A DNA stretch of 64,000 bases from an uncultured Oscillospiraceae bacterium (GTDB lineage Bacteria; Bacillota; Clostridia; Oscillospirales; Oscillospiraceae): the NCBI GenBank assembly GCA_944385095.1, contig CALWVS010000001.1, positions 186,001 through 250,000 of the forward strand, read 5' to 3'. Of the stretch, positions 14,664 through 28,607 are shown in pieces (position 1 is the stretch's first letter; each line of letters begins with the position of its first letter). Position numbers and translations under genes: made by a program. The notes beneath the pieces were generated by a model. The model made no database searches and was not told the DNA's origin. It worked only from the letters and a program-made list of their open reading frames with translations.

Positions 14664-15686
14664 ATGGCGGAAGTTTTATCACAAAGCCAAATTGATGCTC
14701 TGTTAAGTGCAGCTCGTAGTGGCGAGATGGATTTATCCGCATCGGCAGAAAAAAGTCAAGAGAAGAAATATAGAAAATACGACTTCTATAGCCCTCGAAA
14801 GTTTACAAAAGATCATATTAAAATTCTAAATGGTATTTTTGAAAACTATACCCGTATGTTGATATCCAGATTAAATGGTGTATTGCATACAAGCTGCGAA
14901 GTGACAGTGGAAACCATTGAAGAACAGCGTTATTATGAGTTTTCCAATGCACTGTCAGAGGGTGATGTATTGACGATTGTAGATGTCGATTCTGAGGGTG
15001 AGGATATTTCAGGAGAACAGCCCACCTTGCTGCACTTTTCCACCACGCTGATGCTCAGTATGATGGATCGGCTGATGGGAGGAGAAGGGGATGTAGATAC
15101 AAAATTGCCAGATGAGTATAGTCTGACAGATCTGGAAATTCGTTTGTATGAGAGTCTGGCGAAGAGCATTGTTTCAATTATGGGAACGAGTTGGGAAAAT
15201 TATACGGAGTTAAAGTTCAAGCTTAGAAGGATAGAGACAAATCCCACTTTGGTGCAGCTAATTGGTGTGGATGAAACAGTGGTGATTATCGGCATTAAGA
15301 TTGAATTTCCGAATTGCTCAGGTCAGATGAGTGTGTGTCTCCCAGGAGTATTGTTGAGCAATGTTTTTAATAAAATTTCGTTGGGTATGCAAACTGGTCG
15401 GAAACAAGGGCAGGATCACTCCCATGAAATTATGGATATTCTGAAGGGATCAGATTTAGAGATTATAGCAGAGCTAGGTCGCACAGAACTTCATTTGAAG
15501 GATGCCTACTTTCTTCAGGTCGGTGATGTGATTGATTTAGGACATTCTGTAGACACACCTGTTCAACTTTATATTGGTGGAAGGCCGTGGTTTGGGGGGA
15601 AAATGGGAACCTCAAATAACAATATGGCGGTACGGATTGGAGAAGTCTATCATGATGAGGAAAGAGGGGACGATGAAGGGCTATGA
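14664..15686 (+). CDS. fliM: Flagellar motor switch protein FliM
   Basis: FliM is the middle C-ring protein that receives CheY. The 340-residue protein starts with the CheY-binding peptide (LSQSQIDALLSAA, residues 5-17), has the FliM middle domain (CheC-like fold, with RYYEFSNALSEGDVL) and a C-terminal SpoA/FliN-like domain (ELGRTELHLKDAYFLQVGDV). The ribosome site is GGGAGGGG. The gene ends overlapping the fliY start by four bases (ATGA), indicating translational coupling. Confidence 0.95.
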   Translation: MAEVLSQSQIDALLSAARSGEMDLSASAEKSQEKKYRKYDFYSPRKFTKDHIKILNGIFENYTRMLISRLNGVLHTSCEVTVETIEEQRYYEFSNALSEGDVLTIVDVDSEGEDISGEQPTLLHFSTTLMLSMMDRLMGGEGDVDTKLPDEYSLTDLEIRLYESLAKSIVSIMGTSWENYTELKFKLRRIETNPTLVQLIGVDETVVIIGIKIEFPNCSGQMSVCLPGVLLSNVFNKISLGMQTGRKQGQDHSHEIMDILKGSDLEIIAELGRTELHLKDAYFLQVGDVIDLGHSVDTPVQLYIGGRPWFGGKMGTSNNNMAVRIGEVYHDEERGDDEGL

Positions 15687-17182
15687 GTCGAAAAGTATTT
15701 AGTTCAATGGAGTTAGATGCCATTGGCGAAATTATGAATATCAGTTTGGGCTCGTCTGCTACAGCAGTTTCTAATATGCTGGATCACCGGGTGGATATTA
15801 CCACCCCTACAGTTTCGGTGGTTCCAGTAAGTGAATTTTCTCTGGGAGAACTTGAGCCAGCGATTGGTGTTGAAATTAAATATGTTTCTGGGTTGGAAGG
15901 TAGCAACCTGATGCTGCTCAAACGCAATGATGTGAAAGTGATTGTAGATATTCTGATGGGAACAGAAATCCCAGAGGATGAATTTGAGCTCAATGATTTG
16001 ACCATCAGTGCGGTTTGTGAAGTAATGAACCAGATGATGGGTGCAGCATCCACTGCATTATCCAATTTTCTTGGACGATGTGTGAATATATCCACACCCC
16101 AGTCCTTTACATTGGACAATCTGGAGGAATTTAAGAAAGAGCATTTTCAATATAACTCAGATCTTCTGGTTGCAGTCCACTTTATGCTTGGCATTGAAGG
16201 TATGCTGCAAAGTGAGTTTGTCAACGTGATGTCCATCGACTTGGCAAGGGAACTGATTGCAGGCTTTGGGTTAGATTTAAGCGATGAGGAAGCAGAGGAA
16301 GAGCCAGAGCCGGAGCCAGAGCCAGAACAGCCCACAGCCAGTTCCGGCGGTAAAATGAGTCAAGAAGAAATTGAAAAGCTGATGGGTAATATGGGAGCAA
16401 GTGCCCCAGAGCCAGCCCCGGCTTCCAGTGGCGAAAAGATGAGCCAGGAAGAAATAGAGAAGCTGATGGGTAATATGGGAGCAAGTGCCCCAGAGCCAGC
16501 TCCAGCTTCCAGTGGCGGAAAGATGAGCCAGGAAGAAATAGAGAAGCTGATGGGTAATATGGGAGCAAGTGCCCCAGAGCCAGCTCCAGCTTCCAGTGGC
16601 GGAAAAATGAGCCAGGAAGAAATAGAGAAACTGATGGGCAATATGTCAGGTGCTTCACCAACACCACCACCAGCAGCCCCAGTGATGCAACCACCAGCAG
16701 TGGATATGAGTGGTATGGCATATGTAATGCCTCAGATGATGCAGATGATGCAGATGATGCAACAACAGATGCAACAAATGCAGCTTCAAATGCAGCAGCA
16801 GACGGCAGTGCAACAGACCCAAGCTCAGTCGGAAACAAAAAAGATTGGCTCAAAACCACTCCAGACACAGAATCTGGGAACCGCAGTACAGTTGGGCAAG
16901 GAGCAGGAACAAAATCTGGAAATGATTATGTCTGTGCCCCTCGAGGTGTCTGTGGAAATTGGAAGAACCAGAAGAAAAGTGGAAGAAATATTGACATTTT
17001 CCAAAGGTTCATTGGTGGTGCTGGATAAACTGGCAGGAGATCAAGTGGATTTGTTTGTCAATGGTCTTTGTGTTGCTAAGGGCGATGTCGTTGTAATTGA
17101 CGATAATTTTGGTGTTCGAATTACAGAAGTGATTCGACAACCACAGTTATCGGAATTAACAAACAATTATAAAAAATCTTAA
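15683..17182 (+). CDS. fliY: Flagellar motor switch phosphatase FliY with four tandem CheY-binding-like motifs
   Basis: FliY replaces FliN in the C ring of Gram-positive bacteria and dephosphorylates CheY-P. The 499-residue product has a CheC-like domain (residues ~7-205) with both active sites intact (E16/N19 and E113/N116), a long linker, and a C-terminal FliN/SpoA domain (~405-490). Unlike B. subtilis FliY there is no CheY-binding peptide at the N-terminus. Instead the linker holds four copies of a 28-residue unit, each with SQEEIEKLMGNM, starting at residues ~225, 253, 281 and 309; this closely resembles the FliM/FliY CheY-binding peptide (SQxEIDxLL). The rest of the linker is Met/Gln-rich. 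The product is long for the family, owing to the linker. Confidence 0.93.
   Translation: MSRKVFSSMELDAIGEIMNISLGSSATAVSNMLDHRVDITTPTVSVVPVSEFSLGELEPAIGVEIKYVSGLEGSNLMLLKRNDVKVIVDILMGTEIPEDEFELNDLTISAVCEVMNQMMGAASTALSNFLGRCVNISTPQSFTLDNLEEFKKEHFQYNSDLLVAVHFMLGIEGMLQSEFVNVMSIDLARELIAGFGLDLSDEEAEEEPEPEPEPEQPTASSGGKMSQEEIEKLMGNMGASAPEPAPASSGEKMSQEEIEKLMGNMGASAPEPAPASSGGKMSQEEIEKLMGNMGASAPEPAPASSGGKMSQEEIEKLMGNMSGASPTPPPAAPVMQPPAVDMSGMAYVMPQMMQMMQMMQQQMQQMQLQMQQQTAVQQTQAQSETKKIGSKPLQTQNLGTAVQLGKEQEQNLEMIMSVPLEVSVEIGRTRRKVEEILTFSKGSLVVLDKLAGDQVDLFVNGLCVAKGDVVVIDDNFGVRITEVIRQPQLSELTNNYKKS
16349..16640 (+). repeat. 84-bp tandem repeat inside fliY (four units)
   Basis: Equivalent ATG codons of the KMSQEEIEKL unit occur at 16355, 16439, 16523 and 16607, exactly 84 bases apart. 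Units 2 to 4 are nearly identical at the nucleotide level, including synonymous positions; unit 1 differs at several third bases, and the fourth diverges after the GNM of the motif. This points to recent unequal duplication. It encodes 28 amino acids per unit and keeps the frame. Confidence 0.95.
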
Positions 17183-17218: not shown

Positions 17219-17584
17219 ATGGCAAAGATTTTAGTGGTTGATGATGCTGCGTTTATGAGAAAGGTCATTAAGGATACTTTGACTAAAAATGGCTTTACTG
17301 ACATTCATGAAGCAGTGGACGGTAAGGATGCAGTGGATAAGTATTTTGAATTAAAGCCAGACCTGGTTCTGATGGATATCACGATGCCCAATATGGATGG
17401 CTTGGAGGCTTTGAAAGCCATTCGTGGAAAGGATAATACTGCAAATGTTGTAATGTGTTCTGCTATGGGTCAGGAAGCAATGGTGGTTGAGGCTGTTCAG
17501 GCTGGTATTAAGGACTTTATCGTAAAGCCCTTTAAGGATGACCGTCTGATGAAGACTGTTACCTCTATTCTGGGAAATCCTTGA
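17219..17584 (+). CDS. cheY: Chemotaxis response regulator CheY
   Basis: Single receiver-domain protein of 121 residues that carries the signal from CheA to the motor. The acidic pocket (VVDDA, D8/D9), phosphoacceptor D53 (LVLMDITMP), the switch Ser/Thr region (VVMCSAMGQ) and the conserved lysine (FIVKPFK) are all present. There is no output domain. It lies between fliY and fliO, a common Clostridia arrangement that puts the regulator beside the switch proteins it acts on. Confidence 0.95.
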   Translation: MAKILVVDDAAFMRKVIKDTLTKNGFTDIHEAVDGKDAVDKYFELKPDLVLMDITMPNMDGLEALKAIRGKDNTANVVMCSAMGQEAMVVEAVQAGIKDFIVKPFKDDRLMKTVTSILGNP

Positions 17585-26412: not shown

Positions 26413-27348
26413 ATGGATCACAATAAAAGTGAGATTCTGTTGGAAACTGGTACAAATGAAATTGAAATAATGCAGTTTACGATTGATGGTATCCTGTATG
26501 GGATCAATGTGGCAAAAGTGCGTGAGATTATGATGTCTGCACCGGTCCATACAATGCCCCATTCTCATCCAGCAGTGGAGGGTATTTTCAAGCCCAGAGA
26601 CATTGTGATTACTGTGATTGACTTACCCAAGTATTTGAGTAGACAGGATGGCGAAAAAGGGGAAAAAGACCTGTTTATTGTAACCAACTTTAACAAGATG
26701 TACATTGCATTTCGTGTTCATACTGTGGTTGGCATCAGTCGGCTTTCCTGGAGAGATATCCAAAAGCCAGATAATACAGTCTCTGGCGGTTCTGATGGTG
26801 TAGCTACAGGGATTGCACAATGCAATGGTGAACTGGTGACGATTTTGGACTTTGAGAAAATTGTGGCAGAGATTGCACCAGAAACAAGTATCCAAATGTC
26901 AGAAGTGGATGCACTGGGACCCAGAGAGAGAAACACCTGCCCCATTTGGGTGGCTGAGGATTCTATTTTGCTCAGTCAAATGATTCGCACAGCATTAACC
27001 AAAGCTGGGTATACCAATCTGCGGATGTTCCCCAACGGCGCAGAGCTTTGGGAGGCACTGATTCCTCTAAAAGATGATCCTGAAAAGAGAGAAAAAAATG
27101 TATCTTTGATTATCACAGATTTGGAGATGCCACAGATGGATGGGCATCGTTTGACAAAGCTGGTTAAGACAAATGACAAGTTGAAAGCGATTCCCATTGT
27201 CATTTTCTCGTCTCTGATTACAGAGGAAATGAGAATCAAAGGTAAAAATATTGGTGCAGATGAACAGCTGAGTAAGCCAGAAATCGGGCATCTCATTGGA
27301 ATTGTGGATCATTTACTTGGGCGCAGTGGGCAGGAGGAACATAAATGA
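26413..27348 (+). CDS. cheV: Chemotaxis coupling/response protein CheV
   Basis: CheV combines a CheW-like coupling domain with a receiver domain. In the 311-residue product residues ~15-165 match CheW (FTIDGILYGINVAKVREIM, VEGIFKPRDIVITVIDLPKY) and residues ~180-300 a receiver (AEDS pocket, IITDLEMPQMDG phosphoacceptor, IVIFSS, LSKPE). The frame extends upstream to ATG 26341 inside cheD; ATG 26413 preceded by GGGGGAAA fits the domain start. It is the only CheW-type protein in the window. Confidence 0.92.
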   Translation: MDHNKSEILLETGTNEIEIMQFTIDGILYGINVAKVREIMMSAPVHTMPHSHPAVEGIFKPRDIVITVIDLPKYLSRQDGEKGEKDLFIVTNFNKMYIAFRVHTVVGISRLSWRDIQKPDNTVSGGSDGVATGIAQCNGELVTILDFEKIVAEIAPETSIQMSEVDALGPRERNTCPIWVAEDSILLSQMIRTALTKAGYTNLRMFPNGAELWEALIPLKDDPEKREKNVSLIITDLEMPQMDGHRLTKLVKTNDKLKAIPIVIFSSLITEEMRIKGKNIGADEQLSKPEIGHLIGIVDHLLGRSGQEEHK

Positions 27349-28607
27349 GCAGCAAATACATTGTACGCCAGCCAATTAAAAACTTGGAAGATAAAGTGGT
27401 GGCATATGAAATTCAATATTATGGAGATAATCAATCCTTAGGGGTAGATTCTTCACCAACCAATGATTTTGCAGCGGCAGATACCATTTATAATTTCCTC
27501 ACCATGAATATGGAGAAACTGCTGCGCGGTACCCTTCATTTCATGACCTTTACAACCACTTTGTTGTTGAAAAAAACCCCCAGGTTTTTTGACAAAGAGG
27601 AATTGGTGATTCAAATTGATGATAGTGTCATCATTCAACCATTGGCTATGCGTATGGTGCAGCAATATGCAAAAGAAGGCTATAAGATTGCAGTCAATGA
27701 GTTTCAGTTTGCGCCCCGTTACCTTGGAATCATGGATTCCATTGATTACATTAAACTGAACTTTAAAACAACACCTGAGATGACCTTGAAAAATGTCATT
27801 GAAATTGCCCACAGTATGAATAAACAATGTATTGCCATTGGAGTGGATACTGAGGAGTTATACAATAGAGCTCAAAAACTACAGGTAGATTCCATGCAGG
27901 GCGTGTATGTGGCAGAAAAACTTGCAATTCGTGCCCACAACAGTGGATATTTGCAGAGCAATTTCTTCCGTTTGATGGTGGCTGTTACAAAAGAAGAACC
28001 AGATGTGGAGGAGATTGAACAGATTATATCTGTGGATGCAACCCTGACATATGGTATTTTAAAAATGGCAAATTCCTGCTACTTTGCACTGAGACGTTCT
28101 GTGACCACAGTGCGTCAGGCCATTATGACAATGGGACTTGGTGAGTTGAAGCAGTGGGTCTATTTACTCAGTGCCAGCAATGCAGAAAATCAGATGGAGG
28201 AAGGGGCAGAGGAATTCTTGAAACTGTCCTTCATGAGAGGCAGTTTTTGCAGCAGTTTGATGAATTATGCAAAGGGAGTTCCTATTTCCAGACCAGAGGC
28301 CTATCTGATGGGTATGTTCTCCACTCTGCATTATCTCATTGATGCCCCACTTGCTGAGATTTTGGAGCAGATACCCTTGTGCGATGAGGCAAAGGAAGGG
28401 CTCTTAAACCATACTGGTCCCTGTGGTCAGCTTTATGATTTGGTTCTTGCCTATGAATGGGGAGATTGGGCTAAAATTGATGCAATGGCAACAGCACTCA
28501 GTATCCCTACCAATTTAATCACCAGTCTGTATTTTAATTGTGTTGAAGATGTGAACCGCATCTGGAATGAGATGACAAATCCAGAACCAACACAGATGGG
28601 GACTTGA
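27345..28607 (+). CDS. EAL-HDOD signalling protein (YuxH/CdgJ-type)
   Basis: A 420-residue protein starting with a degenerate EAL domain (YIVRQPIKNLEDKVVAYEIQYYGDN: the catalytic EALxR is not kept) and continuing with an HDOD domain (residues ~200-390, with VDATLTYGILKMANSCYFAL and SVTTVRQAIMTMGLGELKQWV). Vibrio CdgJ and Bacillus YuxH have this architecture; CdgJ affects motility. It overlaps cheV by four bases (ATGA) and closes the operon, so it is expressed with the motor genes. Role is probably regulatory, not c-di-GMP hydrolysis; inference. Confidence 0.85.
   Translation: MSSKYIVRQPIKNLEDKVVAYEIQYYGDNQSLGVDSSPTNDFAAADTIYNFLTMNMEKLLRGTLHFMTFTTTLLLKKTPRFFDKEELVIQIDDSVIIQPLAMRMVQQYAKEGYKIAVNEFQFAPRYLGIMDSIDYIKLNFKTTPEMTLKNVIEIAHSMNKQCIAIGVDTEELYNRAQKLQVDSMQGVYVAEKLAIRAHNSGYLQSNFFRLMVAVTKEEPDVEEIEQIISVDATLTYGILKMANSCYFALRRSVTTVRQAIMTMGLGELKQWVYLLSASNAENQMEEGAEEFLKLSFMRGSFCSSLMNYAKGVPISRPEAYLMGMFSTLHYLIDAPLAEILEQIPLCDEAKEGLLNHTGPCGQLYDLVLAYEWGDWAKIDAMATALSIPTNLITSLYFNCVEDVNRIWNEMTNPEPTQMGT

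Follow-up and report, generated by a model that had tools for sequence, protein, structure and literature searches.

In the window, which is the whole 64,000-nucleotide stretch of DNA analysed here, fliM, fliY and cheY lie one after another on the plus strand. The fliY gene (15683..17182, +) encodes a protein of 499 aa in which the open reading frame, Pfam and NCBIfam placed a CheC-like domain, a linker bearing a repeat array, a Met/Gln-rich tract and a FliN (SPOA) domain. Pfam scored CheC at 86 bits, in two stretches of which the best covers residues 9-45, and FliMN_C at 76 bits over residues 414-484. The order by which we assigned proteins to FliY, a CheC-like domain and then a FliN/SPOA domain, was found with both Pfam and NCBIfam, and the NCBIfam FliY model NF005995 was passed with 314.9 bits against a cut-off of 218. 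The translation also contains two intact motifs of the form [DS]xxxExxN, the pattern of the CheC-type phosphatase motif. The first is D-x3-E-x2-N (D12, E16, N19) at 15716..15739 (+) and the second is S-x3-E-x2-N (S109, E113, N116) at 16007..16030 (+). With both motifs intact, FliY is predicted to have phosphatase activity.

The N-terminus of this FliY reads MSRKVFSSMELDAIGEIMN in translation and lacks the SQxEIDxLL peptide, as the first-pass annotation had stated. The same annotation had rightly assigned a single canonical N-terminal peptide, LSQSQIDALL, to FliM (fliM, 14664..15686, +; Pfam FliM). FliM of the window aligns with the FliM chain of PDB 8umd, starting at LSQAEIDALL of the latter. 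The cheY gene (17219..17584, +), directly downstream of fliY, was named from its position and family (Pfam Response_reg, 112 bits), and its product is a candidate ligand of the array. CheC-, CheD- and CheV-like genes are encoded in the window as well, the CheV-like domains being identified by Pfam and CheC and CheD by eye.

Four KMSQEEIEKLMGNM cores, spaced by exactly 84 bp, were located in the FliY linker at 16349-16645. Tandem Repeats Finder reported the repeat at 16346-16645, with a period of 84, 3.6 copies, 93% matches and 0% indels. Unit 1 (GKMSQEEIEKLMGNMGASAPEPAPASSG, 16349..16432, +), unit 2 (EKMSQEEIEKLMGNMGASAPEPAPASSG, 16433..16516, +) and unit 3 (GKMSQEEIEKLMGNMGASAPEPAPASSG, 16517..16600, +) are full units, with the Ser codons of their SQEEIEKLM motifs at 16358, 16442 and 16526, respectively. 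Unit 4 (16601..16645, +; Ser codon at 16610) consists of the core GKMSQEEIEKLMGNM only, the spacer after the core having diverged, and the array proper therefore ends near 16645. An earlier description of the array as four 28-residue units holds for the four cores and their perfect 84-bp period and for the length of units 1-3, but not for unit 4, which is a core alone. The placement of the array between the CheC-like and FliN domains was borne out by the positions of the two Pfam domains. Downstream of the array, the Met/Gln-rich tract (a CAGATGATG repeat) is found at 16733-16761 and onward; Pro/Tyr-rich stretches occupy its position in several relatives.

When the linker of the window was shuffled 200,000 times, one motif arose 98 times and two or more motifs 0 times. 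Among 106 distinct linkers, 228 strict motifs were counted against a shuffle mean of 0.009 per round and a maximum of 2 (1000 rounds). The degenerate DNA pattern WSNCARNNNGANATHGANNNNHTNHTN, which does not match SQSQIDALL of FliM, hit only the four array sites in the whole 2.43-Mb genome from which the window comes, and its control had 0 hits. The four-unit FliY array is confirmed as real.

Such an array might be a neutral spacer or a repeat-prone filler that lengthens the linker. As filler would predict, the Pro/Ala-rich spacers vary freely and between 0 and 5 copies occur; a single codon distinguishes unit 2 from unit 3, by a non-synonymous change at the start of the 14-codon core, which indicates that they are recent copies. 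However, the core has otherwise stayed unchanged through synonymous substitutions. Over its 14 codons, all differences between units 1 and 3 (6 codons) and between units 3 and 4 (3 codons) are synonymous, whereas the spacer of unit 4 differs from the other units by 9 non-synonymous codons. These counts show that the core is under purifying selection at the protein level while the spacers drift. Conservation of the core extends over 236 units from the 106 distinct FliY linkers, in which the information content is 3.2-4.3 bits in columns −1 to +8, apart from 2.3 at +6, and 3.65-4.32 bits in the S, Q, E, I and E columns. The flanking Gly columns at −4 and +10 reach about 3 bits, and the Pro/Ala spacers elsewhere are mostly at 1-2 bits.

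The units are also confined to few proteins. In 61 genomes of the genus, the strict unit DNA pattern matched in 30, all at FliY, at a long form of ComFB or at contig-end pieces (loci assigned by eye), and four matches on further contigs were contig-end pieces of long ComFB. A reversed control pattern had 0 matches in 61/61 genomes. FliY or CheC-type matches were present in 34 of the 61, and the strict pattern had no match in the 27 without them. The peptide has been multiplied at other positions too, in ComFB and at FliY N-termini. We consider filler very unlikely and rejected it on core conservation and on the exclusivity of the units to FliY and long ComFB in the 61 genus genomes. Together with the shuffles, these results speak against a low-complexity filler of many unrelated linkers, which the first-pass annotation had named as a refutation of its reading.

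The units resemble the N-terminal peptide of FliM (LSQxEIDALL), sharing S-Q at 0/+1, I at +4 and large hydrophobic residues at +7/+8. SQEEI, and with it the S-Q-x-E-I core of the FliM class, is present in 4/4 units of the window; at +5, where the class has Asp (or Asn), Glu stands in 4/4. The general form of the linker unit is SQEEIE(R/K/A)(L/M)(L/M), with E at +3 in 90% and at +5 in 87% of the 236 units. The units thus differ from the FliM peptide in being internal and tandem, in having E for D at +5 and mostly R/K/A at +6, and in ending on a mix of M and L. FliM in linker-type genomes is SQSQIDALL, with Q at +3 in 101/103 and D at +5 in 103/103. FliM at classical-FliY loci has Glu at +3 in 25/25, a residue shared with the linker units. 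The systematic difference between the units and FliM of the same lineage could reflect a tuned affinity or a different partner, for example a ParA-like ATPase. Compared with B. subtilis-type FliY, the protein of the window has the same domain order, passes the same NCBIfam model and keeps the phosphatase-type motifs and the peptide class, but its peptide lies in the linker, in four tandem copies, and none is N-terminal.

The strict pattern divided 228 FliY rows, which are non-independent and include six further copies of the window gene, into 79 with the N-terminal peptide, 116 with linker units and 33 with neither. No row (0/228) had both. The single N-terminal SQxEIDxLL peptide of the B. subtilis FliY type was absent in the window and in all 116 strict-linker rows, and a laxer pattern found no linker unit in the 79 N-terminal rows. 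The laxer pattern moved six of the 33 rows with neither to the linker class (SQEEMDALM, SPEEIAALV and TPDEIAAMV kinds) and one, G135, to the N-terminal class (LTQEEIDALV). A class-level sample of 293 genomes, not chosen by motif, had a FliY/CheC match in 120. The 86 FliYs that could be read from 89 loci beside that of the window comprised 75 with the N-terminal peptide, 10 with neither and 1 with linker units; fliY of G345, of the linker lineage, was cut by a contig end and left out of this count. The genus and family sets were likewise chosen without the motif. KMSQEEIE was among the seed patterns of the scan that yielded the set L031-L110, so that the unit frequency in this set is inflated. 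Linker-type FliY was found in Oscillospiraceae, Lachnospiraceae and Butyricicoccus relatives, named as in the sequence records.

A FliY tree was constructed with FastTree from 148 distinct cores picked for spread from the 228 rows (midpoint root, long branches). One clade of 85 contained 78 N-terminal FliYs and 7 with neither, and one of 63 contained 48 linker FliYs (laxer pattern), 15 with neither and 0 N-terminal. The linker unit changed five times on this tree, most simply by one gain and several losses. The two clades and the five changes indicate that the exclusion between N-terminal peptide and linker unit goes back essentially to a single ancient event, after which copy number changed. 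A single FliY lineage has the array, in 0-5 copies, and this lineage lacks the N-terminal peptide. The first-pass annotation had suggested that unit number may vary between strains and had proposed comparing close relatives; the comparison found variation between species. The nearest genome (G041, another species, FliY 92% identical) has four units, one with an E-to-G change. In four genomes of the lineage (L081, L082, L084 and L089), neither FliY nor ComFB has a unit, laxer pattern included, which indicates that the array is dispensable.

The same peptide class appears to have been multiplied elsewhere. G067 and G194 (L427 and L426), of one other genus, have a classical FliY with an expanded N-terminal peptide. 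FliY of G067 carries a canonical N-terminal SQEEIEAMM and three degenerate tandem MSPEAIAAML-like copies before the CheC domain; that of G194 carries a canonical SQDEINALV and four such tandem copies, also before the CheC domain. These arrays seem to have arisen by an independent multiplication of this kind of peptide. The canonical copy of G067 has Glu at +5, so the linker form can fill the canonical place. This ties the two kinds together and agrees with the earlier assignment of the units to the N-terminal kind of FliM and FliY.

Many genomes of the genus carry tandem repeats of the unit in a second carrier, a protein that has a KTAHVLNLL peptide at its N-terminal end and a ComFB domain at its C-terminal end. 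Arrays of the one peptide class therefore occur in ComFB linkers and at FliY N-termini in addition to FliY linkers. These long ComFBs have about 200-590 aa with a low-complexity linker, and 2-7 units were seen per frame in some genomes. Two long proteins checked scored 55.2 and 51.6 bits for the ComFB domain (PF10719) against a Pfam cut-off of 25 and retain the Cys pattern by eye; the hits of a separate search for the domain passed this cut-off as well. Against the NCBIfam model for late competence ComFB the same two scored 29.5 and 26.2 bits, far below its cut-off of 120. They differ from known ComFB in their long form, with its N-terminal peptide, its low-complexity linker and, in some genomes, its docking units. 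A cyanobacterial member of the ComFB family (PF10719) binds c-di-AMP, with c-di-GMP competing (PMC12313861). An HDOD+EAL protein (Pfam) is encoded at 27345-28607, adjoining the CheV-like gene of the window, and HDOD+EAL-like genes adjoin CheV-like or ComFB genes in L401 and L402 as well (by eye). This neighbour is possibly another link to cyclic dinucleotides.

In the class sample, PF10719 was found in 91/120 genomes with a FliY/CheC hit and in 0/173 without, which points to ComFB as a flagellum-linked rather than a competence gene in this sample. Long ComFB frames in the class sample were found only in G000 (the window genome), G308, G345 and G414, apart from an artefact in G276; the long ComFB of L396/G276 is false, a read-on across a run of N, and that of L212 is a false read-on too (both by eye). 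ComFB was in a frame of at least 217 aa in 50/50 linker-lineage genomes searched (50 of 80 found). The long ComFB of the window genome (G000 contig 32, L155) has no docking unit and carries an unrelated repeat, APQPADAEEVKTAE, in that place. In 11 genomes of the family with both genes on one contig, fliY and long comFB lie about 12-28 kb apart; in other genomes, including the window genome, they are on different contigs.

Of 46 genomes in which both FliY and ComFB were read, 20 had the array in ComFB, 21 in FliY, 5 in neither and 0 in both. For ComFB, an array was counted from two units upward, or from one where a contig end truncates the frame, and FliY of these genomes had 0-1 unit; an array in FliY required at least two units, with at most one in ComFB. 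Assemblies from short reads frequently break off within ComFB arrays. The count excludes genomes in which FliY was incomplete, no ComFB frame was read or FliY has the N-terminal peptide (for example G004, G014, G030, G043, G047, G049, G095, G187 and G190). Three of the five with neither, G062, G092 and G135, are outside the lineage, and the strict pattern had missed the N-terminal peptide of G135. G064 has three units in FliY beside one in ComFB. Two further cases lie outside the set of 46: L348 has two units in ComFB, and FliY from its genome (L038) has one; in G308, which is from another family, ComFB contains four units of MSDDAIA type plus a fifth that is more degraded, and FliY contains none. 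Among 48 long ComFBs of the named-genome set, units were found only in L348, laxer pattern included. Compensation in ComFB for every loss of FliY units was considered and ruled out by the four genomes with units in neither protein.

The segregation of multi-unit arrays, in FliY or in ComFB and never in both among these 46 genomes, is what a two-sided bridge might predict. The units would then dock another partner, such as the ComFB domain, CheC, the CheV receiver or surfaces of FliM or FliN, and form a multivalent bridge in the motor complex. B. subtilis ComFB is an obligate dimer (PMC4381287), which would double the valency of an array. However, no test singled out a specific partner. The exclusion has a Fisher probability of 1e-8, which ignores descent, but ComFB arrays on the FliY tree amount to about three changes with two supported independent pairs (three when all branches are counted), and the independent pairs are not significant. 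The exclusion could thus be explained by descent, and we do not claim it as a statistical law. The bridge seems to us rather improbable.

The gene next to long comFB suggests a more concrete alternative partner. A ParA-like frame lies directly upstream, on the same strand, of 90/94 long ComFB frames that are preceded by over 150 bp of sequence, a count in which at least nine genes are counted twice; L215 is a further case by eye. Of the other three, L212 and L396 are not true long ComFBs and L168 has only 187 bp upstream. A ParA-like gene before long ComFB was observed throughout the sampled linker-FliY lineage, for example at L402:3790-5739 and L155:1-1502. Long ComFBs have a conserved N-terminal KT.(H/R)(V/L)(L/M).L(L/I)-like peptide, and this KT.HVLNLL-like sequence looks similar to the ParA-activating tips of partner proteins. 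The units may therefore dock the ParA-like ATPase in the manner in which FlhG uses peptides, and the array would tie the ATPase to the C-ring through FliY, or to ComFB, to control the placement of flagella or chemotaxis proteins where FlhF is missing. FlhF is absent from G000, G308, G345 and G414, the class-sample genomes of the linker lineage, and linker arrays were seen only in the lineage with the ParA-ComFB pair. FlhG interacts with FliY in B. subtilis (review PMC12826062). On the other hand, G067 and G194 combine N-terminal FliY arrays with ComFB frames that are all short (95 and 92 aa), L352, L355, L358 and L377 of the lineage retain ParA-ComFB without an array, and the co-occurrence is confounded by shared ancestry. 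Both docking on the ParA-like ATPase and its proposed role in placement are unlikely in our estimate, although ParA beside ComFB is the most concrete alternative to CheY as a partner.

Binding of FlhG itself, as proposed for N-terminal peptides of FliY and FliM elsewhere, is extremely unlikely. The recognition of FliM/FliY by FlhG, which is MinD-like, shares with the present system the peptide class and a ParA-like ATPase in the lineage; it differs in that this genome is without FlhF and that the ATPase is of ParA type and paired with ComFB. The peptide class fits, and among 87 class-sample FliYs FlhF accompanied 74/75 with the N-terminal peptide and 4/12 without it, as raw counts that ignore descent. 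These counts hint that the conserved partner of the FliY N-terminal peptide is the FlhF/FlhG system as much as, or rather than, CheY. But in the window genome FlhF (TIGR03499) stayed below the curated cut-off (best E 2.7e-22), and no flhF or flhG lies between flhA and the sigma-factor-like gene downstream in the window (names by eye). The two genes are consistently encoded together, according to the review PMC12826062. For the window genome, we largely rejected FlhG on the low FlhF score and the absence of the genes after flhA.

We tentatively favour a reading in which the FliY linker is a flexible arm whose four docking peptides capture CheY-P at the switch, and we hold it at a little less than even confidence. 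Judged from sequence, CheY-P capture, which the first-pass annotation had proposed, is the best single guess for the role of the units. The N-terminal peptide of FliM binds CheY (PMC6946799 and PMC7355467), and PMC7355467 describes the FliM arm as a flexible tether by which CheY may reach additional sites on the C-ring. A multi-site tether on FliY would be a natural extension of this arrangement. Each unit would fold as a helix onto CheY, preferably in its phosphorylated form, and each FliY of the C-ring would offer several capture sites beside its CheC-type CheY-P phosphatase domain and the FliN rim. Such a tether may increase the local CheY-P concentration around the switch, and both signalling and the removal of the signal would become faster. 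The G067 and G194 proteins, which link the unit to the N-terminal class, and the cheY gene directly after fliY would favour CheY as the ligand. Against it, the E at +3 and +5 of the units contrasts with Q and D, respectively, in FliM of the same lineage, as if the specificities had separated, and an array in ComFB would not obviously concentrate CheY-P at the motor. In addition, the FliY N-terminal peptide tracks FlhF, and the array is dispensable in four genomes of the lineage.

In the literature surveyed, mainly open-access and mostly at title level, the linker array and the switch of carrier are not described. Nothing joining FliY, CheY binding and Clostridia, or ComFB with CheY, was found in the mainly open-access literature, and the matches listed for ParA with ComFB contained none relevant by title except the ComFB structure paper (PMC4381287). 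PMC6946799 reports that FliN and FliY sporadically contain EIDAL motifs, complete or degenerate; its available part shares FliY as a carrier with our case but describes no tandem arrays, linker site or ComFB counterpart. A search of solved structures with one unit gave at best a splicing factor at E of about 1, which is meaningless, and neither the search of solved structures with the N-terminal 32 residues of FliM nor the plasmid search gave a match.

Taken together, the array can be regarded as a docking peptide of the flagellar switch that is conserved, has multiplied and has changed carriers, with CheY-P as a candidate ligand. It is possible, though doubtful, that ParA and long ComFB, the latter with its ParA-partner-like N-terminal peptide, its flexible arm and a domain of cyclic-dinucleotide-binding type, form a new flagellar positioning or signalling module of FlhF-less flagellated Clostridia, in which a portable array on FliY or ComFB joins second-messenger and chemotactic signals. 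Switching of the motor shows a high cooperativity that CheY binding lacks (PMC7355467), and models of the switch hinge on the number and place of the CheY-P molecules held. A natural series of FliYs with 0 to 5 sites, or with the sites on another protein, would offer a direct test of such models. The docking peptide is seen here multiplying and changing its carrier during evolution, and the distribution of ComFB, named for competence, points to a flagellum-linked protein in Clostridia.
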